This document shows positions 5,269 to 59,135 of a stretch of 64,000 bases of DNA, piece after piece. Position numbers and translations under genes: made by a program. The notes beneath the pieces were generated by a model that was not told where the DNA came from, searched no databases, and saw only the letters and a list, made by a program, of their open reading frames with translations. Position 1 is the first letter of the stretch; every line of letters begins with the position of its first letter. Source of the DNA: Gryganskiella cystojenkinii (taxonomy: Eukaryota > Mortierellomycota > Mortierellomycetes > Mortierellales > Mortierellaceae); assembly GCA_015852425.1 (NCBI GenBank), contig JAAAIG010000043.1:22796-86795 (forward strand), read 5' to 3'.

Positions 5269-8200
5269 ATGGGTTCCAGATACAACGGCCCAGGGGCGGC
5301 CCTTCGTGGTCAACCTCGGGCACCGAGACAATCTTCACGAGCAAGAGAGGATACTGACGGGTCAACAGCTGTACGTTTTTACTCTTTATTTGGTTTTTCT
5401 TTCTTTCAAAACTTTGTCAGCTATCCTTTCTGTTCCATCGATTCTCTAACACCTTCCCCCTCCCTTGATAATATTTGATATTACCCCTTGTCATTTCAGG
5501 CACAGCCTTCAGATAGATCCCGTCAACCCACAGACAACAGATCTCAGACTGCAGTAACCCCGAAGGATCTTCCGGACATGGCGAGCCCACGTCCATACGC
5601 ACCCTCGCACCAACGTCAATGGAGCGACGCATCGTCCCTTCAAGGGACGGGACAGTATCAGCATGGACCTCCGCCATCAAACGGTTTCCCCTACAACGCC
5701 AACAACACTAACAACCCTCGATCACCATACATGGGTGCCACTACAGGATCACCCGTTTCTCCACCGCCCACGTCTTCTTCCCCTTCTTCTCAGAGCTCAT
5801 ACTTTCTTCCCGGAGATCATCACAGAGCACAAGGAGGACATGGATATCCTCAACAACAACAGCAGCAACATCCCTATGGTTCACCACCTCAACAAAGACA
5901 GCAACCACCACAGCAACAGCGAGGCTATGGTCCCAGCTCGTCTTCTCCTGCACTTGGACCTGGTGGGCCTGGCCAGGGTCAGTATCCACCTTATCAGTAC
6001 GGTAATAACGGATCTCGTGGCGGACCCAACGGTTATGCGGGCAGCAGCAACGGATATGATCAAAGCCCAATGATGTCTCCTCAGGACGGGTGGCGTTCCC
6101 CTCCTGGTCCAAGAGGATACCCAAACCAGAGCCAACAACCGTATTCGCCCTCTTCAAACTATCGCCAGCCAGGACATCAGCAGCAGCAGTATCCTTATGC
6201 TTCCTCAGTTACGAACGACGACCATCATAATGGTCAGCAAGACCGAACTCGAAATCGCTACGAGTCCGACTCGGATGACTACTATAACCGCCAAAACAAT
6301 CACGGACCCGGTGGTTATGGACAACATAACGCTCAAGGTGGTCAAGGTGGCGGCCGATATGAGAACGGCGGACGTGCTCTGAGTTACTCTACCTCGATTG
6401 CTTCGAACACGTCGTCGATCTTGGCTGCTCGTCGTGCGAGAGACGAACGGAACCAACGTCAAAAGCCGCTAGGGGACGAATGGCTCACTTCTCCTACAGG
6501 AACTGAGCACGAAACCGAAATCCTGCCCTGGAGCGATGACGAAGCAATTGTGGCCAAGGCTGTGCGGTCGCCTCCTACCGGTTACTCGAANNNNNNNNNN
6601 GAGAAGATCCTACCACCTATCCCTGGTAGGAACGCCAACAATGGCGGTCAACTTTCGCACTCAAATTCCATCAGAAGTACCGTTTCTTCGGTGGCTGCCG
6701 GACACAAGTCAAACTCAGATATGATCAAGGTGGAAGTTGGTGGAGCGACGACTTTTATCCCTACCAACGAGGGATCCGGGGTCAATTTTGTCAAGAATGT
6801 TCCTAGTTCCTCGCCTCCTCCTCCCTTGTCAAGACACCTTCCCAATCAGCAGCAACAGAGCCTGAGTGGTATTGCTTCATCTTTGAGATCTGCCGCCGCT
6901 GCCACGACTACAGCCAAGGCAGCGACCACTGAGATTCCTCGACAGGATCAGTCCAAGACTACAAAGCCAACAACAGCCAGACGGATTTCGTCTGACTGGG
7001 GCGGACAAAGAATCAGTCTAGACGACATGTTGTCGCCAACTCTCAATGGCAACGGAAACAACAATAGCAACAACATTAGCAGCAGCACGATCAAGGACAA
7101 GGATAGTCAACAACAACAAGCGATGAACAGCTGGCGAACCTCCCCTCCCTTGATGGCCTCCAAGGACACGGCATTCAAGGACTTGAAGAGCAAACGTCGC
7201 AGTAGTTTGCCCGAAAAGTTTGTACCCAACTGGAACGAGCAAGCTCAGGGTTGGAGAAACAGTATCGGACAGAGGAGACCCTCCTGGACGGCCGATAGTC
7301 GTGATAATGGCAAGGAGAACCATGTGGATTCTCGACAGGATTGGATGGCTCAAAGTGCTGCGGCCAAGAAGGCTCTTGGAGACAAGACCGTCTCCAAGCC
7401 CATTGCCGCCATCGATACGAAACGCACCTCTATAGAAGATCGCCGTCGATCTCGGTCCTGGTCACCCAGTCCGGTCTTGTCCCGCAACGGTTCCAAAGCC
7501 AACGTCGAACCGGTGACAAATGGTGCTCGCAAGAACTCTTTGGCCTCGACCATCTCTCGATCCCGTTCCAGATCCCCTGTCAGATCAAGCTCCATCACAA
7601 GATCTCGTTCTCATTCTCTCGCCACCTCAAGATCCCGGTCTCATTCCCGGTCTCGTTCGCCCGGACCTCGATCCAGGAATGCCGGTCACCGGCATTCGCT
7701 TGACTCTCACCACTCGTATTCTCGTTCAAGATCGAATTCGCTTCACTCAGAGACCAGAATGAATGCGCGATCCAACTCAAATCGCATCCATCGATCGGAT
7801 TCACCCCATTCAAGGTCCAGCTCGATCTCTCGATCCCGGTCCAGGACTCCTGAAAAGTACAAGGCTGCAGCGACCAAGGACACAAAGGTCACCGAGCGTG
7901 AATCATCTAGATTCTCTTGGCATTCAGGAACAGAAACGAACCGTCATTCTTGGGAGTCCACGGTCAAGCCCACTGAGAAAGGTAACAATATTCTTGACAT
8001 GAAGACCAAGGATGTTGGTGCGTCTCGGTACTCTTTGGCAACAGAGGATCTTTCGGATTACGAGGATGATTACAGAGAGACCAAGAAAGATGTGAGCAAT
8101 TTAACCACCACGACTGACGTCGCGGCCAATGGCATCAATGGTGCTGCACATTCGCAAGAGATCAAGAGGAACGTCACTCGACGTGACTCGATCTCGGACT

Positions 8201-11200
8201 CGGACATGGATTCACCCCCACTCAAGGTCCAGTACTCAAGGAGGCCTCAGCAAGATGACGACGATGAAAAAATCTCGTCCAAGCACCCGGCGTCGATCAT
8301 CTCAACCTTCAGCTTGCCTCCTGCAGGAGATTCTATCTCGGCTCCTCCAGTGCCCCAGCCCATGCCCACCAATTCCAACTACCAGACGGGTTTAGCACCG
8401 GGTGGTCCGGGTCCTGCTGTGAACACATCAAGAGATTTCCTGAACTACAAGCCGGTGGCACCACCACCCGTTCCAGCCTCACCGACCAAGGAAGTTCCAT
8501 CGATGCAGAGTCAATCTGCGGTTACGACGGTGTCGATCGAAGCTGCAACTGCGACCATGACTCTGTCGAGTTCCAGAATCTCGATGGAGAGCTTCAAGAA
8601 TGTTCCCGGGAATAGCGGAGAACAGCAGAAAGGTGCCATGGATACAGATCTGGATACAGACTTTGATACGGATACCGAGTCTTTGATGAACCATCGCCGT
8701 GGTGATCGAAACGGGCCTTCAGCTCGTTCAGCTCCCTTTGACTCGGCGCCTTCGACCCCGGGAAGTCGAGGATATAATAATAACAACAACATCGGTCATA
8801 CTCCTTTGTCGAGGAATGCTTCCAACACCTCCCAGCTCTCTCAGCTTTCAAGAAACGCCTCAAATACGTCACAGCTTTCGAGAAACGCTTCGAACACTTC
8901 TCTTCTCTCCCGAAAAGAATCCACGAGCAGTTCAGTATGTCACGCATGTGCAGGAAAACCAATATCAAAAAGGTGTTATTCGTTACTTGTTTCGATCGTC
9001 AGCTAACTCGTATACACTCTCTGATCTGTTTTATAGATTGTCTCTATGGACATGAGAGGTCCAAGACCTGGAAGTCCCTCGACTCACTCAGTTTCTTCCA
9101 TGTTGTCTTCATCACCCCCACCTCAGAGGGCCCCACCCCCAATTCCAGCCTCAGAGATCGGGGCCAACGGATCCATCATCGGAGTTGGTTTGGGACTTTT
9201 GGCAGGCGCGAAGCGATCTGCTAGTGGAGGCAGTGCCCGCGGTGCGCGATCGGGTCTCAGCAAACAAATCTTGCCCCCGCCCACAGCACCCCCTGGCCCG
9301 CCCCCTGGCCCTCCCCCACCACCTGCTTTGGAGACCGCAACTGCAGCAGCCGGTAAGACTTCATACGGAATTTTGCCACCCCCGATCCCATCCTCGTTCT
9401 TGAGTCCCACCAAAGAGAACGGTAGCACGGGCCTTCCTGCCCCCAGTATGGCCTCGGTTGTGAACACGACCTTGTCAGGCGCGATTCAAATGCAAATTCT
9501 TGCTGACGAAGATCAGAGCAAATCCCAGATGGGTGCGATCACAGTCGAAAGTGACGAACGGATGTTGACGCGCCTGAATAACCGTGTCGCTCAGCTGGAG
9601 AAAGAGCTCGAATTTGCACAGCAGGATCTCGAGGCTAGTTTGGAGGATGCCTCGGATCTTCGGGATAAGGTCCATGATCTCGAGACGGAGCTTGAGGATG
9701 CCCTCACGAGTCAGAATTCCAAGGCCAATACCGAGATCGATCAAAACGCAAAGGACGAATGGGAACGTGAGCGTGTCCAACTTCTCGAGGACCTTCAGCG
9801 TCTGAAGGAAGATCACCAAGATGATCTTGAGGATTGTGAACGTCGCGTCGGGGACGCTCACAAGGGTGAGCTTGAACGTCTTCACTCGGACCATGCCCTG
9901 GCTCTGGAGGATCATGAGACCCGATCGAGAAGAACCGTCGAAGATCTGGAAGAGAGTCATGCACGCGCCATCGAGGATCAGAAGCTACGATTGGAGGAAG
10001 ATCACCAGGATGCGCTGGATAAAATCCTAAGACAACTCGAAGAGGCTCATGATGAGCATTCCCGAGCCTTGGAGGAGACGCGGTCTAAGCATGAGCAAGA
10101 TGTGATGAAGGCCCAACAGGAATGGGAGTCTCGACTCGAAAAGGAGCTCGAGGTTCTCAAGTCCAGTCATGCGGATCAGGTTGAAATCTGGACTACGGAG
10201 CGTGAAAAGTTGGAGCAGACGCTTGAGGAGGCCAAGACCAAGCAAGAACAAGCTCAGAAGGATCTTGAGCACCACAAGAAGGAGACGGAGCAGGCCCTGG
10301 ATAAACTCGAGGTCGTGCTGGCGGATGACAAACAGACGTCGGCTCGTCTGGTGCAAGATCTGGAAGCGAAATCCAAGCGATTGGAGGATCGCGTTGCGGA
10401 ACTCGAGGCCGAGTTGCAAGAGCTGATGCAGGATAACGTCCAGATTGTCGAGGAGATGCAACGTCGTGAGGAGGCTTGGGCGCACGAACGATCAGTGCTT
10501 CAGTCCGAAGGCAGTGACAACGATGGTAACGCAGCGCGCGTGCAAGAAATGTATGAACAGATCCAGACACTCACAGAATCGAAGCGTCAAGCAGATGCTC
10601 AGTTCCAAGGTATCGTTAAGGGACTATTGCGTGAGGCGTCCAAGAGCAAGAAGGACCTCGAGGAGCGCGATCAGCTTTTGCAGAAGGAACGTGAGGCTCA
10701 AGAAAACATTTCCAAGGAGATGGAGACGATTGTTCAACAACTCGAGCAAGCCCGTCAGGGTCAAGAGATGCATCAACAGGAACGGTCCGGTCTGGAACAA
10801 TCTCTTCGAGAGATCGAGGACCAACTCGAGGCTCAGCGACGCAACGGCAATGAGGCCATGCTGTTGATCCAGAAGGAACTCGAGACCCGACTCCAAGACG
10901 CCGAACAAGAGCTGGCGTCCAAGAGACAGGCATTGACCGAACTCCAGACCTCATTAGACAAGGACCGTTCCAAACTCGCGAAGGATCAACAGCAAGAACA
11001 GTTCATGTGGCGGAACAAACTGGATCAAGTCGAGGCCGCGCTCAAGACCAAAGAGGCTCAAGTTCGGAAACTGGAACAAGAGGCGGACGCGACGATGAAG
11101 ATCCAGACGGATCTTTTGCAGAGTATGGAACGCGATGCGGCTTCCTCGAGCAAGAAGGCAGAGGCCAGCATGTTGGCGAAGACCAAGGCTCTGGAGTTGG

Positions 11201-12135
11201 CTTTTGAAGAGGAAAAGAACCAGTTGATAGCTCAGATGAAGGGCATGGAGGCTGCGTTTGAGGAGGAGAAGAGGATGCAATCGTCCCAGTTGCACAAGGA
11301 TCTGGTACAACAGTTCCAGAACGATTCGAACGACAGGGAAACGCGGTTGCAGCAACAGTTGGATTCGATCCATCAACAGGAGATGGCGACGGTCCAACAG
11401 AATTTGTTGTCGAAACATGATCAACAAATCCGGGCTGTCCATCAAGAACTCTCGATCGCGCAGCAGGAGTTGGTCCAAAAGCATGAACAGCAAATGAAGG
11501 CTGCCCGTCAACAACACGAGGCCGCATTGGCCCAGGCCAATGCTCAGGTGGCACATCAGACAAAGTCACTGGAAGATCAACTCAAACAAAAGACCAAGGC
11601 GCTTGAGGAGAAATCCAGATCATTGGAGGACCAGCTGGAGAAGATTCAAGCCCAGGCGGAACAGGATCGATCCGAGAAGGAGACTGCGTTGAAGGACCGA
11701 ACTTTCTTGGAGCGTAGGATGGCCGGTCATGATCGTCGCCATAAGGAACTCGAAGAGTCCCTGGAATCCCTTCAAGCCCAGATGGATCAATCCAAGGCCA
11801 AGTTTGGTCAGGATCTGCAAGAACTCGAGCGGTCCAAGAAGAATCTGGAGCGCAAGTTGGGTATGGCCCGCGAGGATGTTGAGGAGTTGAACAAGGTCCG
11901 GGACGAATTGGAGAGTGATCGGAATGAGCTCCGGAAAGAGCTTTCCAAGATGAAGAAGTCTGGTGGTGGTGGAAGCGGAGGAAGCAATGGCGGTGGAGGT
12001 GCTGGAAAGGCCGAAGCCGCTGCTTGGGAAGCCGAGAGAAAGGCGATGAAAGAGCAGATGACGAAGTTGGAGGATGAAGTTCAGATCATGCTTGAGAAGA
12101 ATATGAACCTGACGATCGAGCTTAGTATGAAATAA
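5269..12135 (+). CDS. Large disordered and coiled-coil scaffold protein
   Basis: Three exons, 5269-5370, 5500-8934 and 9037-12135, all join in phase 0 through GT-AG introns and give 2211 residues. Residues 1-340 are Pro/Gln/Gly/Tyr-rich, with polyGln around 153-177. Residues about 720-818 are an arginine-serine (RS/SRSRSRS) tract like those phosphorylated by SR-protein kinases. Just before the second intron (DNA 8810-8920) the motif SRNASNTSQL recurs three to four times. Residues about 1350-2205 form one very long coiled coil rich in Glu, Gln, Lys and Leu, broken near the end by a Gly/Ser linker (DNA 11960-12005). The architecture fits a cytoskeletal, septation or polarity scaffold, but I do not recognise a family. 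Ten N at 6591-6600 lie inside exon 2. The frame is kept across them, but the true number of missing residues is unknown. Confidence 0.8.
6591..6600. other. Assembly gap (10 N) inside a coding exon
   Basis: A run of ten N falls in exon 2 of the coiled-coil gene, after codons for ...GYS. A run of exactly ten N is probably a placeholder. The open frame on both sides matches, so no frameshift is implied. Confidence 0.95.
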
Positions 12136-15266: not shown

Positions 15267-17622
15267 CTACGGGATGATGGCTTGAGGGGCACCAGGCGAG
15301 CCCAGATCAACAGTACCGAAGCCGGGTCCACCTTGAGGACTACTCAAGCGTTTGTAACTGTCGTCTGCAGTGGAGGTGGTCATCAACGAGTCCCGACCAT
15401 AATCATGGTACCCAGAACTGTTGTATGGGGTTACCTGGGGAGATCCAGCCGAGGATGTAAACATGGCTCCCGAGCCCTTCTCGTATGTCGGATCAGGAGT
15501 ATCAGGGGCTGGGGCGACAGTGACGGGTGGTGGAGGTGGGTAATAGATCGTACCGATGGGTGCTGCGGAAGAGGAAGTTGGAGAAGGGTATCCTAAGCCG
15601 TAACTGTCTCCGTACATGCTATCGGTGTTGGCAGGTTCCGAGTCCAAGTACTCGGCGACATTGGGTTTTGTGTAGTGAGCGTCGGACATATGAGGAGAGG
15701 GTTGGGTGAACTGGTTCTGGTAATGCTGTTGGTTTTGGGGGTACTGTTGTTGTTGTTGTTGCGGCTGGAAGATCTTTGGGCTGTAATCATGCTGATGTTG
15801 CTGTTGCTGCAGTAATTGCTCCTGTCGCTGTTGAAATTGTTGTTGCTCCAGAAGTTGCTGTTGTTGCTGATCGAATTGCTGTTGATCATATTGCCGCTGA
15901 AGTTCCGCCGCATATACATCATTGACGGCGACGTTTGCAGCTATAGCTAGCGAGGGATCGCCAAAGTTGCCTCCTGCTCCTCCCCCTCCGTTGCCATAGG
16001 CACCAACGGCGGGCTTGCCATTGTTGCTCGCTCCATGGCCATAGGCACCTACTCCTCCAACAGCTCCTCCTCCTCCTCCTCCGTCACCGTGATGGCTAGC
16101 TGATTGCATCCGCATCTCGCTTTCTTCCTGTTGAGGAACCTTTTGATGCCGTTGTCTCTTGCGACGGTTTCGTTCATAGATGGCCCAGGCACCAACGACC
16201 AAGACTGCGACTGCGGCGGCACAAATTCCTCCAATAAGACCAGCGGACATGCCGCCTTTACCGCTGCCTCCTGATCCAGAAGTTCCATTACCACCACCAC
16301 CATTGCCATTTCCTCCCGAGATCATGGCACTCGAGGGTGTGTACGAGAGTTGCCATTGCAGCTTTTGAAGATCCAGAAGTAACATGCATTCGGCGCCTGT
16401 GGGTACACCGCCGTTTGTACTTGGGGTCGTGTAGAAGCCACCCCAGACCATGAACGTGTTATCTACTACTGTACAGGCGGCATTGCCTCGTCCTTTACCA
16501 GAATAAGGGACTGTGGTCCAGGTCCAGCTCTGAGTGTTCAAGATGTAGGCATTGGGATCTGCAGTTCCGGATCCTATCGGGAACCCTCCAAAGATCGCGA
16601 CCAACGATCCGTCAGCATCTACTCCACCACAAACAATAAAGAGATATATCAGTTGCCAAAAACACAAAAGTTTGTCCATTCGAGAATAAATAATAAAGAA
16701 TATATGGAAAAACTTGGAAAAACAGTAAAGCACTCACTGCTGGCCGCACAATGACTGTTCCGAGAGTAAGCGAAAGTGCCCGTGGTATTCTACAACAAAA
16801 AGAAATAAAGTAGCGTCATCAGTTCCTCTGCGGTGCTCGGTTGAAAACATCAAAGTATCGCCATCGTTTTTTTTTTAAATAACTGATCTCATCCTTCATT
16901 TTCATTACCTGAGTAGACCAACCACCTGTAAGAGGCCAATAAATCCAAAGATTGGGGCTATTACCACCACCAATCACCAACATGGCACCCAACTTTGATG
17001 CCCAGACCGCACCATAAGTCGAAGGGTTCTGGGGACCAGTTGAGGTCGTCTCTGTTAGGGTTTTTGTCGCAGGATCATAAACATTAAATGCGTTTGAAAG
17101 AGTCGATCCAGCGGGTCCACCATCGCCTCCGAGGATATAAATCTTGTTGGCAGAAGGGTTGGTCACGACCGAAAAGTCTCTTCTCGAGTTGTCTTGCAAT
17201 ACGACGGAGCCTGTGGGGGGTGCGGACCAGGTCTTGGTCGCTATATCGTAGATGTTTAACCAAGAAGCTGCTACCTGACTTGCAGAAGCGGCCGTGTCTC
17301 GTCCAAATGTATAAAAAGTTGAATTGTCAGAAGAGTAACCTGCAGAGTGGAAACCGTTGTAGGGTCCGGCGGGTAAAGATGTCCAGGCTGGCGCGGCGGT
17401 GGTCCAGGGTTGGGACAGATCAAGGGACCAAAAGGTCTGAACGAGGTTATCGGCATAGGTTGCACCTCCTTGGATATAGAAGTTGTTCCCGACCCGAGCA
17501 AAGGCTGCTCCACCGACAGATTGGGGCTGTGATGGTTGAGAGAGTGTTTGATGGGCGAGAAGAGGGAAAATGACGGAGGTCAAGACCGCCGTCGTAGATC
17601 GGAAATATGGGTGTCGCCGCAT
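15267..17622 (-). CDS. Kelch-repeat single-pass membrane protein
   Basis: Three exons, 17622-16909, 16789-16738 and 16621-15267, join with matching phases and give 706 residues. Residues 1-28 are a signal peptide (basic start, then LTSVIFPLLA and a QP-type end). Residues about 33-350 are kelch-type beta-propeller blades, seen as repeated GG followed by a Trp or Tyr several residues later (FYIQGGATY, IYILGGDGG, MLVIGGGNS, LVAIFGG, FMVWGG). A Gly/Ser/Asn linker leads to one membrane helix at about 382-403, followed by the basic stop-transfer RNRRKRQR. The roughly 300-residue tail is Gly-, Gln- and Pro-rich, with polyGln and several Tyr-Gly or Tyr-Pro motifs. The topology is an outward-facing propeller with a long cytoplasmic tail, suggesting a cell-surface sensor or adhesion protein (inference). 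A second protein of the same design lies at 53745-55331. Its 3' end is only 190 bp from the first recognisable exon of the Frizzled-like gene on the same strand. Confidence 0.85.
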
Positions 17623-24641: not shown

Positions 24642-24779
24642 ACTATCGGACTCTAATTGCATTTAACTCTTTCGCATCCTCCCTCCTAACTCTCATATCC
24701 TCCCACTTTTACTATCGGATTCTAATTGCATTTAACTCTTTCGCATCCTCCCTCCTAACTCTCATATCCTCCCACTTTC
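24642..24779. repeat. Two-copy 69-bp tandem repeat upstream of the RasGEF gene
   Basis: The unit beginning actatcgga at 24642 recurs at 24711 with one C/T difference at its tenth base and otherwise near identity, including the CTCATATCCTCCCACTTT end. High identity suggests a recent duplication. It lies about 600 bp before the RasGEF start codon. Confidence 0.85.
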
Positions 24780-41762: not shown

Positions 41763-44700
41763 TTATGGGTCCACGGTCGACATGGCAGAACCCTGGTTCT
41801 TGGACAGACTAGCATCCGATCCTTGACCCTGAACGGTACGGATCCGTTGTTGAGCAGGATCAATAGTGGTAGCAGCGGCAGCGGTAGAAGTAGTAGTAGT
41901 AGTGTTGTCGGAATTCTGACGTTCAGGGTGGTGGTAATAAACCTCGTTAATGCCCTCAACCGCAGGGTTCTTGGCTGGTGTCGTCTCAGCAGCAGGAACA
42001 GCTGGCGTTGTCGTCGATGGTGCGGTAGTGCCAGGAGTAATCGTCGAAGGTGTCGTCGCTGTGGAGCCCGAACCTGCAGCCGCCGTAGTAGTACCTTGAG
42101 CTGCGGGAGCCGACAGATCCTCGTCCTGACCTCCACCAACCAAGTTGTCACCCTCATCAAAGCTCTGAGGCTCATCCGACGTCTGCGACGGCAACATCAG
42201 TGGCGGTCTCGCCAACGCCGCCTCAACGTGCTCATGGACATGATGTTCATCGTCCGATTCTGAATCCGAGTCTGAAGGACGATGACCCGCCTCGACATCG
42301 AAATTGACCTTCTTGTTGCTGGCAGCGCCTTTCTTGAGCGGTAACCAAAGAGTCGGCAGAGGGCCCGCGAGTGCTGGGTGGTTGTACTGACGCATACCCG
42401 AGTTCAAGACACCATCGTACAAGGTCATGGGTGGTTGACGATAATCCGTGTATCGATCTGGGATCGCTTGATAATCGTCCTCTTCAACAGCACTCTTGGG
42501 GATCAAACGTTGGGTGCCTCCGGGGGTAATCACAGCGGTCGCAGCGGCGATGGAGATGTCGTGTCCTTTTCCTGTAGAGCTTGATCCTGCAGCTGCAGTG
42601 GTAGGTGTGGTCGAGGTACTGGAGGGTTTCTTGGTATCATCGACCTGAATGAGAACGTGTCCAGGCACCTGAGTCGATGACGCGGGTCCCGTAGCAGTCG
42701 AGGTACTGTTATCCTGAACCGAGTTCTCGTTACAAGGATCCAATTGCGCTTTCACGTCCTCAGGTCGAATCAACTCGAGCGGAACAAACTCTGCAGAGTT
42801 TTTGTACGCCTTTGTCGTCCAAACCCAGAACCAGACTGTGCCCACAGGCAAGGGGACTAAGAGCGCGCCTAAAAGATATGACTGTTGCAGGATAAACAAC
42901 CCCATTGCCGTCATCTGGAAAACCAACAGTCCCAGTGTGATTCGGTTATATACCATAGGCCAGGTCTGACCGTTAGACTCGTTTGGATGGAAAAACACGT
43001 AGAGCAACTGGTACTTGATCACGAGGTACGCCAGCGCGAAATAAATCGCGCCAAAGACCAAGATCAACGGTCTCAACGTCGAATAAATTAGGATAATCAC
43101 AAAGATCAACGTCGCATTCGCGTAAACGACACCATGGTTCAACTCTGGGGGTGCTCGAGCCTCGGCATAATCACGCGGGGTTTTAGACAGGATGCCATGG
43201 AAGGTCTGAACAAAGACGTCTCCAATCTCGAGGAGTTGCAAGGGGAACATGCCGATACCCTTCAAGATAATATAGTTAATAAAGAAGGGCGCGACGCGAG
43301 GGAGTGAGGTTGCGAGGATCAGTGTGAGTTCCCCGAGGTTATGATAGACCTTGTCCACCGTCTGGGCCCAGGTACCGACGATCGTAAAGACCAAGACGAC
43401 GTTGAACAGGATAAACGTAAAGTACTTGTTATAAAGCGATCGGGCGACGCCTGAGCGGGATTGGATCCCTTGCTTTCTACAAAGTGCCTCCAGAATTTTG
43501 GGGACGACGGCCAAAAAAATCACGACTCCGAGTGTGGGAAGGAAACCTTGAATCAATTGCTTCAGGATTGGGTTCGCCTCGGCAATGACAGAGATTCCGG
43601 GAATCAATTTCTCGAGCGAGTCCAAATTCAAGAATGATGAAAAGACACCGATTGGTCCGGCCCAGAAAAAGATGAGGAAAAAAACGGTCGTGTTGACGAC
43701 CACGGATCGGATGCCGAGCTCGCTCGAGGGTAAGTTCAAGTTGTCCCAGAAGACGTCCCGAGGTTCCGGCGCCAGAGTCGTTTCGCATGAGAGAGTTTCC
43801 TGAGTGTTGACGGTTTGAGCCAAGATTTGCTATTTGTTGCCAAAGGGTAGATATGATTAGCACAATCGCTTGAAAACACCGCACATATATCAGCAACCCC
43901 CNNNNNNNNNNAGGAGTCGTAACTTACAGCAGAATGCATCTCCTCAAAAGTGACAAAGCCCACAGTGGTCGATGCAAAGATCCGGGACAGGCGCATCTTT
44001 TGAACCGCCTTGTCCAATGTGGCAAAGACCTCACTGCAGTGATCAATCTTGTCGACTTTTTTTCCAAAGATACCCCAAAGACCTAATCGCATCGTCGGTC
44101 TCTTCTTGCCCGGAATGGCTGCTCCGCGGTTGTAGTTTGTACCCAACAATGAGGTCCCCTCGTTCGCGTTCTCGTCCATGGTCGCCCGTCGAGAGAGAGG
44201 TGAAGTTCGATCAAATTCGGATTCAATCTTGTCGGGATCATATCCTTCTACTCCAGAGGGGTTGCCATAGTACTTTGTGTAAACCTTCTCGAGCTGTCGA
44301 AGGGCATGAGCACGTTGTTGGATCAATCGCTTCAAGGTCCGGACGTGTCGAACAACATGAGCGCTCTCGACTGATCCACATCCCAAACCTTCGTAAAAAG
44401 TCGCCAACGATCGATCGGTTTGCAAATGCGCCGGTAAATCCACAACCATGACAGTTCGGTTGGTGATAGATTGCGCACGCTTCAGCATGTATTTGCGACG
44501 GATCGCGATATAGCCCTCATAGGTTTGCCAGATCGAGTACAGCGTCAAGAGTGTAAAGACCCAAGTGAACGTGAACTGCGTGAAAAGGTACAACAAGGAC
44601 TGTTTCACGGCACTGGGAGTACTGGGTGTTCCTGTCGTGCTGTTCCCCCCGTTGACAGGGTCGATCTTTGCAGAGTGATTGTTGATGGGCATGATGATGA

Positions 44701-45806
44701 GCAATCCTGGAATCAAGCAGCAAGAAAAGAGTTTTATGGCCATGGAGAAGAACCGCAAGAGCTAGAGCAGAAGGACGGTCGAAAAATAACAAAAACAAGA
44801 AAAGGGATGGTCAACTCCTGCGTGTTTGTTGTGATAAGAATGCACGACGACAAAAATTCCTTTCGACAATCAACAAAAACAGGTTTTTTTCTTCCGTTGT
44901 CGTGTCTGTGCTTGTGTGTTCTCATGTTGTCGTCCCGCCCCACATTTCCTCAAAACGATATTTTTCCGTTTCAATGTGAGTGACTCTTACCATGACGGCA
45001 TCAAGTCCGACACAATCCAGGACTTCAGCCTCTGGAATGCGCAATAACTGAGGGATCCATCCAAAGAAGGTCGATGACAAGATAGGAGGTGTATGTCTAT
45101 TTGAAAAAGAAAAGTGTTAAAAACGATACAGTGTGAATCACTCAAAAAGCAAATCCATTAGAACTTCCGCCTGATCCGTAGACCGTCCTATGCATAACAA
45201 ATGTCCCCCCTCCCGTTCATCCTACGGCATATTCTCGAATTTCTATTCTCGAGCTACCATCCTTTTTTCATTATCTTTCGCGGTGGTTTCTCCTTGCTCA
45301 GCCGTCAAAAAAAAACAATGAACCTTTAGTTCCTCCCGTTATTGCAGCATAACCTTCACCACCACTCTTTTAACAGACTCACCTGCGAAGTTTTGACCGG
45401 GGTGCAAACATGACGACCCATCGGGTACGCAAGAGACAAAAGGATAAAAAGGCGACCAGTCCAAGAGAGATGGAAATGACGAGCTGAGTCGTTAATCCAG
45501 AGACGTTGTTCGCCGCCTTGGGGTCACCTGTGAGAAACAAAAAAAGTGCGGAGAACGCGTCAGTCTTCAGAAACTGCAAACCCATCACTGAGGTTCACAC
45601 TCCGAGAGGTCTTCCTTTGTCTTACCGGCACTGGTGGCATTCAGAGTGTCGTTGACTGTTGAGAGTCCATTGAATGTCTGGTCCCTACAGAGAATTGAAG
45701 TTCGGCGGTTAGAAAGGGAAAGCAAACAAATGAGACCGTTGGCCCATTATTTTCAGGGGGTTTTTGAATTGTACCCGAGTAAGGACGTCAGGTGGTAGTC
45801 TTCCAT
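41763..45806 (-). CDS. CSC1/OSCA/TMEM63-type cation channel
   Basis: Six exons, 45806-45775, 45684-45626, 45527-45383, 45096-44991, 44761-43928 and 43829-41763, all consistent in phase, give 1080 residues. The first helix is at about residues 40-62 (LVISISLGLVAFLSFCLL), followed by GWIPQLLRIPEAEVLDCVGLDAV and a second helix ending LLIIMPIN. A third follows (YLFTQFTFTWVFTLLTLYSIW). A cytosolic domain with TVMVVDLPAHL, KVYTKYY and VGFVTFEEMHSA then leads to LAPEPRDVFWDNL. The seven-helix pore region follows, with FLPTLGVVIFLAVVPKIL, NALPR-equivalent and DYAEARAPPELNHGVVYANA. This is the RSN1_7TM fold of osmosensitive, mechanosensitive cation channels in the plasma membrane. The roughly 310-residue C-terminal tail is Thr/Ala/Ser-rich. 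The fifth intron contains a ten-N gap. Very short first and second exons (32 and 59 bp) were placed by phase and by the family N-terminus. Confidence 0.9.
43902..43911. other. Assembly gap (10 N) in an intron
   Basis: Ten N lie between the exon ending at 43928 and the exon starting at 43829 of the CSC1-like gene. They do not touch coding sequence. Confidence 0.95.
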
Positions 45807-53744: not shown

Positions 53745-55331
53745 TTATGAGATTACGGCATGTGGTCCATTCACAGGAGCATCTGACTGAGTCAATCCCT
53801 TTGCTGCTGCTTCATAACATTGAGGGGCAGCGCGCTGGAGTTGTTCTTTGGAGGCGGACAGGTAATAAGAGCTGGTCTGCAGTGGTCCTCCATCGCTCCC
53901 GACGTACAGCTGTGGCGACAGGCGCTGGAGTGGCTCTTTGGAGGCGGACAGGTAATAAGAGCCGGTCTGTGGTGGTTCTCCGTCCTTCCCGACCCATAGT
54001 TGTGGCGACAGCCTCTGCTGTGATGTGGTGGGCACAGATTGATATGAGCGTCGGTCATGATAGTGCTCGTTCAGGTGCTGTGGTACAGATGGTGGTGGTG
54101 GCACATAGCCTTCAGTCCGATGATGCATGTCCTCCTCTCCCTTTTTGTTCAGGAAGGCAGCTCGTGTTTTTCTTCTTCTGTATACGAAAAAACCAACTAT
54201 CAAGGCAATAGCTGCCACTCCACCAACCACACCACCAATCATTGCTCCATTGGAAGATGTCGATAAGTTGCCTGGGGAAGTGCCACCACTTGGTGAAGTG
54301 CCGCCACCTGCAGTAACCAAAGGTGTCGCCGGAACAAACTGGTGGACCCATTGCATTGACTGGAGGTTGAACAACAGCGTTACGTTATTGGTGAGGGCAG
54401 TGTTGCCATAGCCACCACCCCATACAATGAAGAAGTCGTGATCGATGCCACATGAGGGTGCAGCACGGGAAACAGAGCTACCAGCGTCGGGTCCTTTTTT
54501 CCACTGCATGGATGCCACATCCAACACGTAGATGTCGCTTAGTGCGGGCTGCACTAACTGGTTCAATCCACCAAAGACCACCAGTCTACTTCCTGTTGCA
54601 TCCGATACCATGCAGTGGTTGTCTCTACTGGGTGGGATATCCCCTCCAACAGGTGGCTGGATCCAGGTGTTGTCGGCAGGGTTAAATGAGTAAAAGACGC
54701 CGAGTGGTAGGATACTTGAAGCTGACACACGGCCCGCATGAAGGAAGAGTCGTTTCGCGTAGGCGCTCCAAGCCACACCTGCCTCGATGTCTGATGGTAA
54801 ATCGGAGGGCATCGGTAAACTGGTAGCTGTTCCATAAGCGAGGTTGTATGCCATCATCGTGTTGTTAATGACGCCTGCTTGATAATATCCACCCGGCAAG
54901 TAGAACGTATTGGTGGCAGGGTCGATGGCACCACCAAGACGAGTTCCTTTTGCAGCGATTCCATTGGTCAAGGTGGAACCCGGTATCCAGGTTTGCGAGC
55001 CACTCAAGTTGAACGAGAAGATTTGACCAGTAGATACGACTACCAACGTATCATCTCCTGTGCGACTGGACGGCACGTAGATGTCGGCAGGACCGCCCTG
55101 TAACTTGTTGTATTTGGGATTTGCAGTATCCCATGCAACAGTTAGATCCAGAGAAAATGTCTGAGAGACTGCGCCAAGCGAGATGGTAGTTTCACCGGGT
55201 GTCCCTCCAGAGATGATCATGGCCTTGCCTTGAACCACTGCCTGGGACGCGCCATAAACGGGAGTTGGCGTCTGGGCTGTGGTGAAACGGAAATGGCAGA
55301 GACAAATGGCAAGCAAGACGATTGCGCGCAT
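53745..55331 (-). CDS. Kelch-repeat single-pass membrane protein, second copy in the window
   Basis: A single exon of 528 residues. Residues 1-19 are a signal peptide (MRAIVLLAICLCHFRFTTA). Residues about 25-335 are kelch-type blades, with repeated GG (MIISGGTPG, FYLPGGYY, LVVFGGLNQ, FIVWGGGYG) each followed by W or Y residues. A Gly/Ser/Thr-rich linker leads to one membrane helix at about 363-384 and the basic stop-transfer YRRRKTR. The cytoplasmic tail of about 140 residues contains two near-identical 30-residue units. Layout matches the kelch protein at 15267-17622, but this gene has no introns and the tail is shorter and unrelated, so the propeller and helix are conserved while tails diverge. 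It likely works at the cell surface, with ligand unknown. The start codon at 55331 is supported by the signal peptide. Confidence 0.87.
   Translation of the reverse strand: MRAIVLLAICLCHFRFTTAQTPTPVYGASQAVVQGKAMIISGGTPGETTISLGAVSQTFSLDLTVAWDTANPKYNKLQGGPADIYVPSSRTGDDTLVVVSTGQIFSFNLSGSQTWIPGSTLTNGIAAKGTRLGGAIDPATNTFYLPGGYYQAGVINNTMMAYNLAYGTATSLPMPSDLPSDIEAGVAWSAYAKRLFLHAGRVSASSILPLGVFYSFNPADNTWIQPPVGGDIPPSRDNHCMVSDATGSRLVVFGGLNQLVQPALSDIYVLDVASMQWKKGPDAGSSVSRAAPSCGIDHDFFIVWGGGYGNTALTNNVTLLFNLQSMQWVHQFVPATPLVTAGGGTSPSGGTSPGNLSTSSNGAMIGGVVGGVAAIALIVGFFVYRRRKTRAAFLNKKGEEDMHHRTEGYVPPPPSVPQHLNEHYHDRRSYQSVPTTSQQRLSPQLWVGKDGEPPQTGSYYLSASKEPLQRLSPQLYVGSDGGPLQTSSYYLSASKEQLQRAAPQCYEAAAKGLTQSDAPVNGPHAVIS
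53838..54017 (-). repeat. 90-bp coding tandem repeat in the kelch protein tail
   Basis: Two 30-residue units at residues 439-468 and 469-498 share QRLSPQL.VG.DG.P.QT and SYYLSASKE, with a partial third unit starting QRAAPQ. The conserved YYLSASKE could be a phosphorylation or docking site (inference). Confidence 0.88.
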
Positions 55332-55558
55332 TGAATGATTTGAAGATGACGTCGCTCCAAAACGTATTGGGATGTGAATGAGGAATGGAATGAAGGAAAG
55401 GAGAGGGAGGCAGCCAATCTCATCAATGATTCTCCCAAAAAGTCAGTCAAGGAAAGAGGCGATTCAAAGCAATGCTCATGTCCCGCCTGTCGCAAAGTTT
55501 ATGTCGGGGGGTACAGAATACACTGCCGCTAGAAAATTGATCGATGTACGTTCCTGAA

Positions 55559-56342: not shown

Positions 56343-59135
56343 TTAAATGAAGATCTGACTGGTGCCCAGAACTGCCAGGAAGGGAACGAGCGCAAACCGA
56401 GTTGCAAAATAAAACAGCATGCCAAAGCAGATCGAGATTGGTAACGCTGGCAACGCCTTTTGATAGATTGCCAACAAGAAGATCGTCGCGTTCATACCCG
56501 TCAGCACTGCGACAGTACAGCACATTGTCGTAACCCAGTCAAACATGGCTAGAATTGTTGAGAGAAATGACCTTGTTAGTGAGAAGGAACTCTCAAGATA
56601 TCTCGTCACGGCCTCACAAAAGGTGAGAGATCAAGGACGGAATCAACGGATCTTACCTGCTCTTGCGATCAGCACACTATAAAACACAAAGTCTCCCAAT
56701 CCAAGCTTGAGTCCACCACCGTCATCATCCTCATCCTCATTCTCGTCTTCTTGACGCTCAACAGTATCCTCGCTACGACGTGAGGGTCCCGATGACCGCC
56801 GGTTTCCTTCGTCCTGCCTTGACGACCGGTCTCCACCACGTGCTCTTCCAGGCCCTGTTCGCGAGGGACGATCTCGGAGTTCGATATGCTCTCGAGAATC
56901 GTTCGTCATGTCCTGCAGTTGTGAACTCGGGTATAATGCCATCGTCGAAGATGCCCGGGACATACCACTGCTCGGTGCAAACGAGGCATCCAGCGCACTG
57001 TTCCGACTGCTCCCGCCGATACTGTCTGCCTCGCGACCCATGGCACGGGCATGTCCCATCGCAAAGGAGGTCGTGGTTCCTTGGTTGTTGTTGGCGGCGC
57101 TGGAGACCACGCCATCCAGTGTTCCATCGTCTGATTCCAAGCCCTCATTTTTCATTTTGTCCGCTACCTCTCGATTAAGAATCGAGTTTGGTGGTGAAGC
57201 CATGAACCAGACGGCGTTGACAGTGTAAAGCAGTGCAGGGACTTCTTGGTTTTGATTCCTGGAACTCTCGACTAGAATCTTGAGCGGACCAAAAGGACAG
57301 AGCACAGCGATCAAATCTAATAAGTGACGTAGTATTCAAAGGTAAATAACGTAGACTTAGGTTTTCTCCCGTTCCGGTCGAACGCAGAAAAGACAAACAA
57401 AGGAGGGTTAACATACCCCAAACGACCAAAAGAGCCAGTAGCATCCATGTCGTCCACTCTGCAAGTCCAGTCAGCGAGAAAGCCTAGCCGTGATAGTAAG
57501 CCGAATGAAAAAAAAATGTCAGTTGAATCTGCTTCGAATATTCGCTTCGCCATTCCTCCCCATAAAAAATAAAATCTCTCCTCCTCGTACCATCAAACTA
57601 CTCATGACGGTGAGATAGACCTGTTGGAGCCACATGGGGCCCTTCCAGAACACCGATATCAATCCAGTTACGGCGAAATTCCACAGTGCGAATGACATGG
57701 TCACATAATCCATAGGAATCCTGAGCACTTGAATCAAGTTGAGGACTAGGATATATCCCATAAAGCCCAGCAACATTGCCACGACGACCATGAAGAAGCC
57801 GATCAGAACCTAATAAAAAATTGATGTATCACCAAGAACGGCGAAGTTATAATCAGCGATCATTTGACTAAGGTAGGGGGACCAATCTTTCTCGATCAGA
57901 CTCTTTCTCTCTATTTACCTTGATGTGTCCTCGCTTGAAGAGAACGACGATGATGATGGTGACAATGACAATCTGAGCAATAATAATTCCTGCGTTCGCC
58001 AAGGATCCCAGAATATTTTGTGATACAGTCGACGTTGAAGTTTCATTGTAGACTGTATAAGACGATTGCGTGGGCCTGCCAGAGATTATAAAAGAAAACG
58101 TGAAGATGTCAGTCTTTCCTCCCGTGTCCGACTTATGCCTTACTATTATAGTCTCTGGAGGTATTTTACCTGTAGTCGCTTCCTGCCATCGAGATTTTGA
58201 CCCAGAGAATACTCAAACAAATGCAGATCACGACCGGCTTGATGATCTTGTAAACCTGGAGCATATAAAACTTCATGTCCGCTATCCTCTCGGCTTCCTC
58301 AAAGGCAGCTCTTTGTTCTGGAGTCAGTTGAGGTCGTCTCCGGGGTTCCCGTGGTCGTCTTCGAGGTCTGTTCGCCGTTGCCCTCACATTCTCAGCCTCG
58401 GCACCCAAGGGATCCTCGATTTCTCCTGTTGCTTGTCGAATCCGTGGTCTGTCTGTAAAGAGATCAAGAACAAAAGAAGAAAAAAACGTTGAGAAGTTGT
58501 CCCTTTTCTTTCTTTTCTGTCCTTACTTCTGTTCTTCATATGTATAAATCGTGTCTCGCTTTCAATATCGCCAGTGCTTTACCTGCAACCGCCTGGGTAT
58601 CACCACCTTCTGCGTTGTGTCCAGCAGCGTCGCCAACAAGTTGTTGTTGTTGTGAGCGAGGCACACTAGATCTTGATCGAGGTCGCTGACTCCTCCTCCG
58701 TGTTGCAGTACCGTCAACCTCTTCTCCTACTTGCTGTTCCTGTTCCTCTTTCATAGCAGCGACAATTTCGGCACACTCGCGATAATGAATCTTCCAGTCG
58801 GAGGCTTGACATTCTTGCGAACAATATCGGACACTCTGGCAGGCGGAACATTGGAATTTGGCAGGGAAGACCCCACAGGCTTGACAGGGTTGGTCCTCTC
58901 CGTCATCGTCCTCGCCTTCCTCCTCAGAGGCTCCGGTGCCTGAACCATTACCACTGCCGCCTTGTGCTGAGGCTGTGTTTGTTGTTGCTGCGTTGACCGG
59001 CTGTGTTGCGACTATGGATGAGTTTGTGGAGGTTGCATCGCCTCTTTGAGCTTCTGGTGATGACATGCCCTGCGTTGCTCCGCTCCCTGCTTCAGTTGTG
59101 GTTGCGGTGGCACGGGATGAGTCTATGGATGTCAT
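56343..59135 (-). CDS. MYND zinc finger-presenilin fusion (gamma-secretase catalytic subunit-like)
   Basis: Seven exons, 59135-58583, 58452-58170, 58075-57919, 57809-57591, 57483-57417, 57316-56657 and 56548-56343, agree in every phase and give 714 residues. Residues 84-121 form a MYND finger with all eight ligands: C84, C87, C96, C99, C105, C109, H117, C121. After a basic linker (RRRPREPRRRP) comes a nine-helix presenilin: TM1 at about 253-273, WNFAVTGLISVFWKGPMWLQ in TM4-5, the first catalytic Asp427 in VVWDLIAVLCPFGPLKILVE, and a hydrophilic loop of about 180 residues. The second catalytic Asp636 is in LGLGDFVFYSVL, and the PAL motif is at 680-682 (KALPALPISI). Family knowledge: presenilin is the intramembrane aspartyl protease of gamma-secretase and is cleaved in the large loop. 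The usual YD motif is WD here. The LVE.. and ..PALLYT segments separate it from signal peptide peptidases. The MYND part could bind Pro-rich partners in the cytosol (inference). Confidence 0.9.

Follow-up and report, generated by a model that had tools for sequence, protein, structure and literature searches.

A MYND zinc finger at the N terminus of presenilin in Gryganskiella cystojenkinii and other early-branching fungi

In Gryganskiella cystojenkinii, we found a presenilin gene that encodes, in one open frame, a complete MYND zinc finger ahead of the intramembrane protease. The gene (59135..56343, minus strand; hereafter the window presenilin) lies in a 64,000-nt stretch of contig JAAAIG010000043.1, which we call the window and to which coordinates refer unless a contig is named. 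Presenilin is a protease core familiar chiefly from Alzheimer's disease, and in animals its N terminus is generally regarded as a disordered tail. When a 5.8-billion-protein set was searched with residues 80-714 of the window presenilin, the 21 best matches carried both Pfam domains at 62-72% identity across the whole searched stretch, and because of this agreement the join appears to be neither accidental nor a gene-model error. The fusion proposed in the initial annotation is therefore supported by both-domain homologues, and the singularity that it implied was wrong: sequence comparison indicates that this is a widespread form of presenilin in early-branching fungi rather than the property of one odd fungus.

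Mean identity between the window presenilin and these 21 Mortierellomycota models varied strongly along the chain. It was 90% in the finger, 88% in the segment preceding the first transmembrane helix (TM1; residues 206-240), 89% across TM1-6 and 92% across TM7-9, and it fell to 20% in the N tail, 20% in the exon-1 linker, 39% in the big loop and 11% in the linker at the exon 1/2 junction (residues 175-195). Because the finger matches the catalytic core in identity while lying between freely drifting flanks, it is probably under selection as part of the presenilin protein. We also compared finger divergence with core divergence by permutation. On 49 rows the correlation was r 0.70, with 0 of 2000 permutations as high, a value that mostly reflects close relatives; with one row per lineage (15 rows) r was 0.24 (161 of 5000 permutations), from which we drew no proof.

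The Pfam presenilin profile PF01080 scored 415 bits (cut-off 34.3; 2.8e-124) over profile positions 2-407 of 408, matching residues 246-703 (56379..58270, minus strand, introns included), and the protein could be assigned to the presenilin fold. Its earlier identification as a presenilin holds, since the score exceeds the curated cut-off and both catalytic aspartate motifs are in place (W426-D427 in TM6 and GLGDF, a GLGD motif with D635, in TM7), together with the PAL motif (ALPALP, residues 678-683). One refinement is needed, in that the first aspartate motif reads WD rather than the textbook YD. A motif scan of 120 homologues matched 113, and all 113 had WD, a Pristionchus presenilin included. 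Animal presenilin-1/-2, the catalytic subunit of gamma-secretase (MEROPS A22A), has YD and a tail without a known domain, whereas the window presenilin has WD, a MYND finger and a conserved pre-TM1 segment. Signal peptide peptidases are related intramembrane aspartyl proteases; in this genome they (A22B, PF04258) are separate genes at two places, and the Pfam match of the window protein is to presenilin. As a separate observation, P0070, a predicted Pristionchus sel-12 of 943 residues, contains two sets of presenilin catalytic motifs, representing either tandem copies or a merged model.

Reconstruction of splicing from the DNA joined seven exons on the minus strand (59135..56343) in one open frame of 714 codons, which agrees with the coordinates, reading frames, 130-bp intron (58582-58453) and 714-residue product given by the initial annotation. 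All six introns are GT-AG, with lengths of 130, 94, 109, 107, 100 and 108 bp. Exon 1 (58583..59135) holds the low-complexity N tail, the finger and the first half of the linker and ends in phase 1; intron 1 (58453..58582; GTAAAG...TTTACAG, phase 1) separates it from the presenilin exons, and exon 2 (58170..58452) supplies the second half of the linker, the conserved pre-TM1 segment and TM1. By eye, exon 3 (57919..58075) covers the post-TM1 loop and TM2 region and exon 4 (57591..57809) the TM3-TM5 region. Exon 5 (57417..57483) carries the TM6 region and ends on the first base of the D427 codon, which intron 5 divides; the remainder of that codon opens exon 6 (56657..57316), followed by the variable loop and GLGDF with D635 (codon 56691-56693). 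Exon 7 (56343..56548) contains the last TM segments, ALPALP (codons 56439-56456) and the stop. Because 14 of the 21 closest models open with MSS..., resembling the window sequence at residue 24, the true start may be M24 (MSSPEAQRG; 59064..59066), in which case translation would begin at 59066 and give a product of 691 residues.

The finger occupies residues 84-121 (58773..58886, minus strand) and was located by both the Pfam zf-MYND profile PF01753 (39.2 bits, cut-off 22.7; 7.2e-10) and a six-frame match. With the score above the curated cut-off and all eight C4-C2HC ligands present, the complete eight-ligand MYND that had been reported stands, and the finger is predicted to bind zinc. The closest solved sequences are the MYNDs of ETO/MTG8 (CBFA2T1) and DEAF-1 (1.2e-5 to 1.9e-5), which share with the window finger the C4-C2HC ligands, the groove Gln and Trp, and a Ser at the Thr/Ser contact. 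In ETO/DEAF-1 MYNDs the Gln and Trp hold proline-rich peptides, and both were invariant in 81 of 81 complete presenilin-borne fingers, a count in which the Trp position was left free; because of this invariance, tethering through proline-rich ligands is plausible. The conserved ligand contacts of the DEAF-1 MYND are Met512, Glu514, Thr516, Gln529 and Trp533 (PMC3555993); the window finger has Ser at 516 and keeps Gln and Trp, but Met512 and Glu514 are not kept. The settings also differ, as the ETO and DEAF-1 fingers are co-repressor-binding adaptors of transcription regulators, whereas this one sits at the N terminus of a membrane protease. BS69/ZMYND11 has a PxLxP-binding MYND that must be followed by a basic patch (PMC3555993). 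In contrast, the residues following residue 121 of the window presenilin, AEIVAAMKEEQEQQVGEE, are largely acidic and form no BS69-type basic patch.

The spread of the join was assessed from two homologue searches, with the finger scored by a profile of presenilin-borne fingers. The first scored the 8000 candidates with most shared words and gave 607 homologues, the best 120 being listed; the second gave 93 matches, all listed, and the two together comprised 147 distinct proteins. The initial annotation had named relatives that always keep the two domains as separate genes as a refutation of the fusion, and the opposite was observed: among these listed homologues, 94 of 147 carry the finger, whole or in part, in the same chain as presenilin, 86 from its front (P0140 weakly, at 12 bits) and 8 more with the front cut by the annotated start. 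A further 20 have fewer than 45 residues ahead of TM1, and in the other 33 the N terminus is longer but finger-less. Eight of these 33 are Mortierellomycota models resembling annotation slips, three (P0069, P0107, P0112) retain the linker motif seen in fingered relatives, seven are either animal sequences or rows that cluster with or resemble these, and two are merged with an upstream domain (P0134, P0136). Among the remaining 13 are absences that look genuine, in Gonapodya, Piromyces and rows like them and in Amoeboaphelidium occidentale, unlike A. protococcarum, in which the finger is present. One of the eight Mortierellomycota models, P0041, has an N terminus that translates the finger exon in the wrong frame (blastp 3e-9 against the corresponding frame of the window). 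No finger was found on the five named animal presenilins among the homologues listed. A third search, aimed at non-fungal MYND presenilins, scored 26 candidates and returned three, all already known, and was uninformative. With plants, amoebae, nucleariids and holozoan protists outside the groups sampled by name, we do not claim a restriction to fungi plus aphelids. Separately, some predicted presenilins (P0129, P0132, P0134, P0057, P0136) carry extra Pfam domains that are either merged neighbors or real fusions: HEAT/armadillo-type domains in Batrachochytrium salamandrivorans and Polyrhizophydium, PF06094 in Rhizophagus irregularis and PF01699 in Siphonaria.

We placed the fingers on a quick tree of presenilin cores (85 rows, about 24 of 80 forks unresolved), in which full support is given to a set of ten Mortierellomycota rows that includes the window presenilin. 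Finger-bearing rows come from aphelids, Blastocladiomycota, chytrids, Basidiobolus, Syncephalis, Glomeromycota, Mortierellomycota and Mucoromycota. When the 13 rows whose N termini are doubtful were excluded, four changes (one gain and three losses) sufficed for the 72 scored rows; when only 6 truncated rows were left out and the rest were scored as annotated, 11 changes were needed, the labels "truncated" and "unsure" being our judgement from the N-terminal letters. A finger-less root is preferred if a gain costs the same as a loss, the two states tie if a gain costs two, and a fingered root is preferred if it costs three. Most simply, these patterns suggest one ancient gain on the stem of fungi and aphelids, followed by a few losses.

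Profile searches of the same genome (35 Mb, 1050 contigs) recovered the other gamma-secretase subunits, each at one locus and above its family cut-off: APH-1 (C864, 6.4e-42), PEN-2 (C791, 9.9e-7 and 7.4e-4) and nicastrin (C363, 1.8e-15, with the small lobe at 1.6e-7). The APH-1 and nicastrin exons additionally match solved chains. The presenilin profile gave four matches in the window gene and one elsewhere, at C129:33126-33665, which at 22.5 bits is under the cut-off; the genome also holds the two A22B places and eleven MYND places.

Two types of short motif were seen between the finger and TM1. Among 55 MYND presenilins with a linker of at least 15 residues, 13 contain AQ[ILVWM]IN, from chytrids to Glomeromycota, and 9 of those 13 have the form RGNxAQxIN; shuffled linkers gave an expectation of 0.012, which is flattering as the motif was picked after viewing the linkers. 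In the window presenilin, ENVRATANRPRRR (residues 205-217; 58355..58393, minus strand), about 40 residues before TM1, is perhaps a diverged equivalent of this motif. The predicted structure of P0001 has a short helix (162-171) at the place matching ENVRATANRPRRR, with a predicted local distance difference test score (pLDDT) of about 50-60. A second linker motif, [DENS]I[PA][LM]x[DEQN][LIM], precedes TM1 in 13 rows of Mucorales, Umbelopsis, Bifiguratus and kin. The other type is PxLxP, represented in the window presenilin by PQLTP just before TM1 (residues 225-229; 58319..58333, minus strand). Of the 21 closest models, 17 also have PxLTP and the other four PxMTP or PxLTA; most of the Mortierellomycota presenilins listed carry their own PxLxP. 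Outside Mortierellomycota, PxLxP was absent before TM1 from every MYND-bearing row among the 85; the sole other row with it is P0109, whose model lacks the finger. A universal PxLxP self-ligand was accordingly rejected outside Mortierellomycota among these rows.

The best explanation, which we regard as probable though far from certain, is that the window presenilin is the catalytic subunit of a fungal gamma-secretase with a built-in cytosolic MYND adaptor. We infer the topology from homology to human PSEN1, and we infer complex assembly, proteolysis and peptide docking as well. The protein would consist of a cytosolic N-terminal MYND, a flexible linker, a conserved basic and proline-rich segment and a nine-helix aspartyl protease, with the finger remaining on the N-terminal fragment and facing the cytosol. 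There, an ETO/DEAF-1-type groove (Ser, Gln, Trp) would bind a proline-rich peptide of a cytosolic regulator or a substrate tail and bring the bound partner to the assembled protease. More tentatively, and with less than even confidence, we suggest that this is the early fungi's own gamma-secretase, to which MYND was joined once on the aphelid and fungal stem and in which it may have steered intramembrane proteolysis toward proline-rich partners in the cytosol or linked to chromatin, before the entire complex was lost in Dikarya.

Two other roles for the finger were weighed against that of a ligand-binding adaptor. It may be solely a structural element serving stability or trafficking, as several presenilin-keeping lineages lack it; moreover, the groove Gln and Trp may be kept for the fold alone. 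We nevertheless consider a purely structural finger unlikely, given that both residues are invariant and that the finger is as conserved as the catalytic core between unconserved flanks. The finger might instead act as a self-docking switch, binding the PQLTP 104 residues downstream on its own chain or a neighboring one and controlling the protease through the pre-TM1 segment. PxLxP is a published ligand of the BS69 MYND (PMC3555993), and PxLTP recurs in most close relatives within the 88%-conserved segment adjoining TM1. However, fingered rows outside Mortierellomycota among the 85 lack the motif, four close relatives depart from it, BS69 requires basic residues where the window presenilin is largely acidic, and in the predicted structure of P0001 the linker between finger and motif has pLDDT below 50 (111-155). 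We consider self-docking rather doubtful.

The origin of the join was considered in the same way. Repeated, independent joining of MYND to presenilin in fungi would fit the weak finger/core correlation at the level of lineages, the little signal held by 40-residue fingers and the many open forks of the core tree, but it appears quite improbable, since four changes suffice for the scored rows, the finger is N-terminal to TM1 in every case and a linker motif is common to chytrids through Glomeromycota. The possibility that prediction merged a separate MYND gene with an ordinary presenilin gene directly downstream was rejected, both because of the conservation seen and because of what the short homologue models look like, and we give it almost no credence. 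It would draw on the 20 models that start close to TM1 (at least three of the 20 animal or grouping with animals, and some starting right at MKFYM) and on the poorly conserved linker at the exon 1/2 junction. Yet models with both domains occur in many genera, and short models look like annotation errors because eight are cut within the finger and P0041 reads the finger exon in the wrong frame. In addition, the presenilin part alone would begin MKFYML without a cytosolic tail, since no other Met precedes it in the exon-2 frame.

Gamma-secretase in early fungi is already in print, both domains are well known, and databases tag these proteins with both Pfam accessions. Earlier, a survey with four fungi had declared presenilin absent from fungi (PMC2770060). 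The open-licence literature searched by titles and abstract openings yielded no description of a MYND presenilin, its spread or its conservation, and the words MYND, fusion and nicastrin have 0 occurrences in the main text of PMC10406608. A conserved folded adaptor across much of early fungal diversity would mean that gamma-secretase can receive regulatory input through the cytosolic N terminus of presenilin. The finger may also offer a concrete handle on the role of the complex in fungi, where gamma-secretase was long thought absent, and one usable in culturable species such as Mortierella alpina or Phycomyces.

Several other features of the window were recorded. The presenilin gene adjoins a gene for a kelch-repeat (galactose-oxidase-like) protein (53748-55442, minus strand) with a TM-like segment by eye and, in its tail, an in-frame tandem duplication of 2 x 90 nt (53832-54011); a second, weaker kelch match under the Pfam cut-off lies at 15270-16733 (minus strand). 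An RSN1_7TM calcium-dependent channel gene (41766-43829, minus strand) adjoins a frame at 43736-44761 (minus strand) with a short run of unknown bases. Two plus-strand frames of more than 1000 residues, 5479-9003 and 9037-12132, are without a Pfam match, one being Ser/Pro-rich and one Glu/Gln-rich and coiled-coil-like by eye. Finally, a 69-bp unit is present twice, at 98% matches, at 24642-24778.
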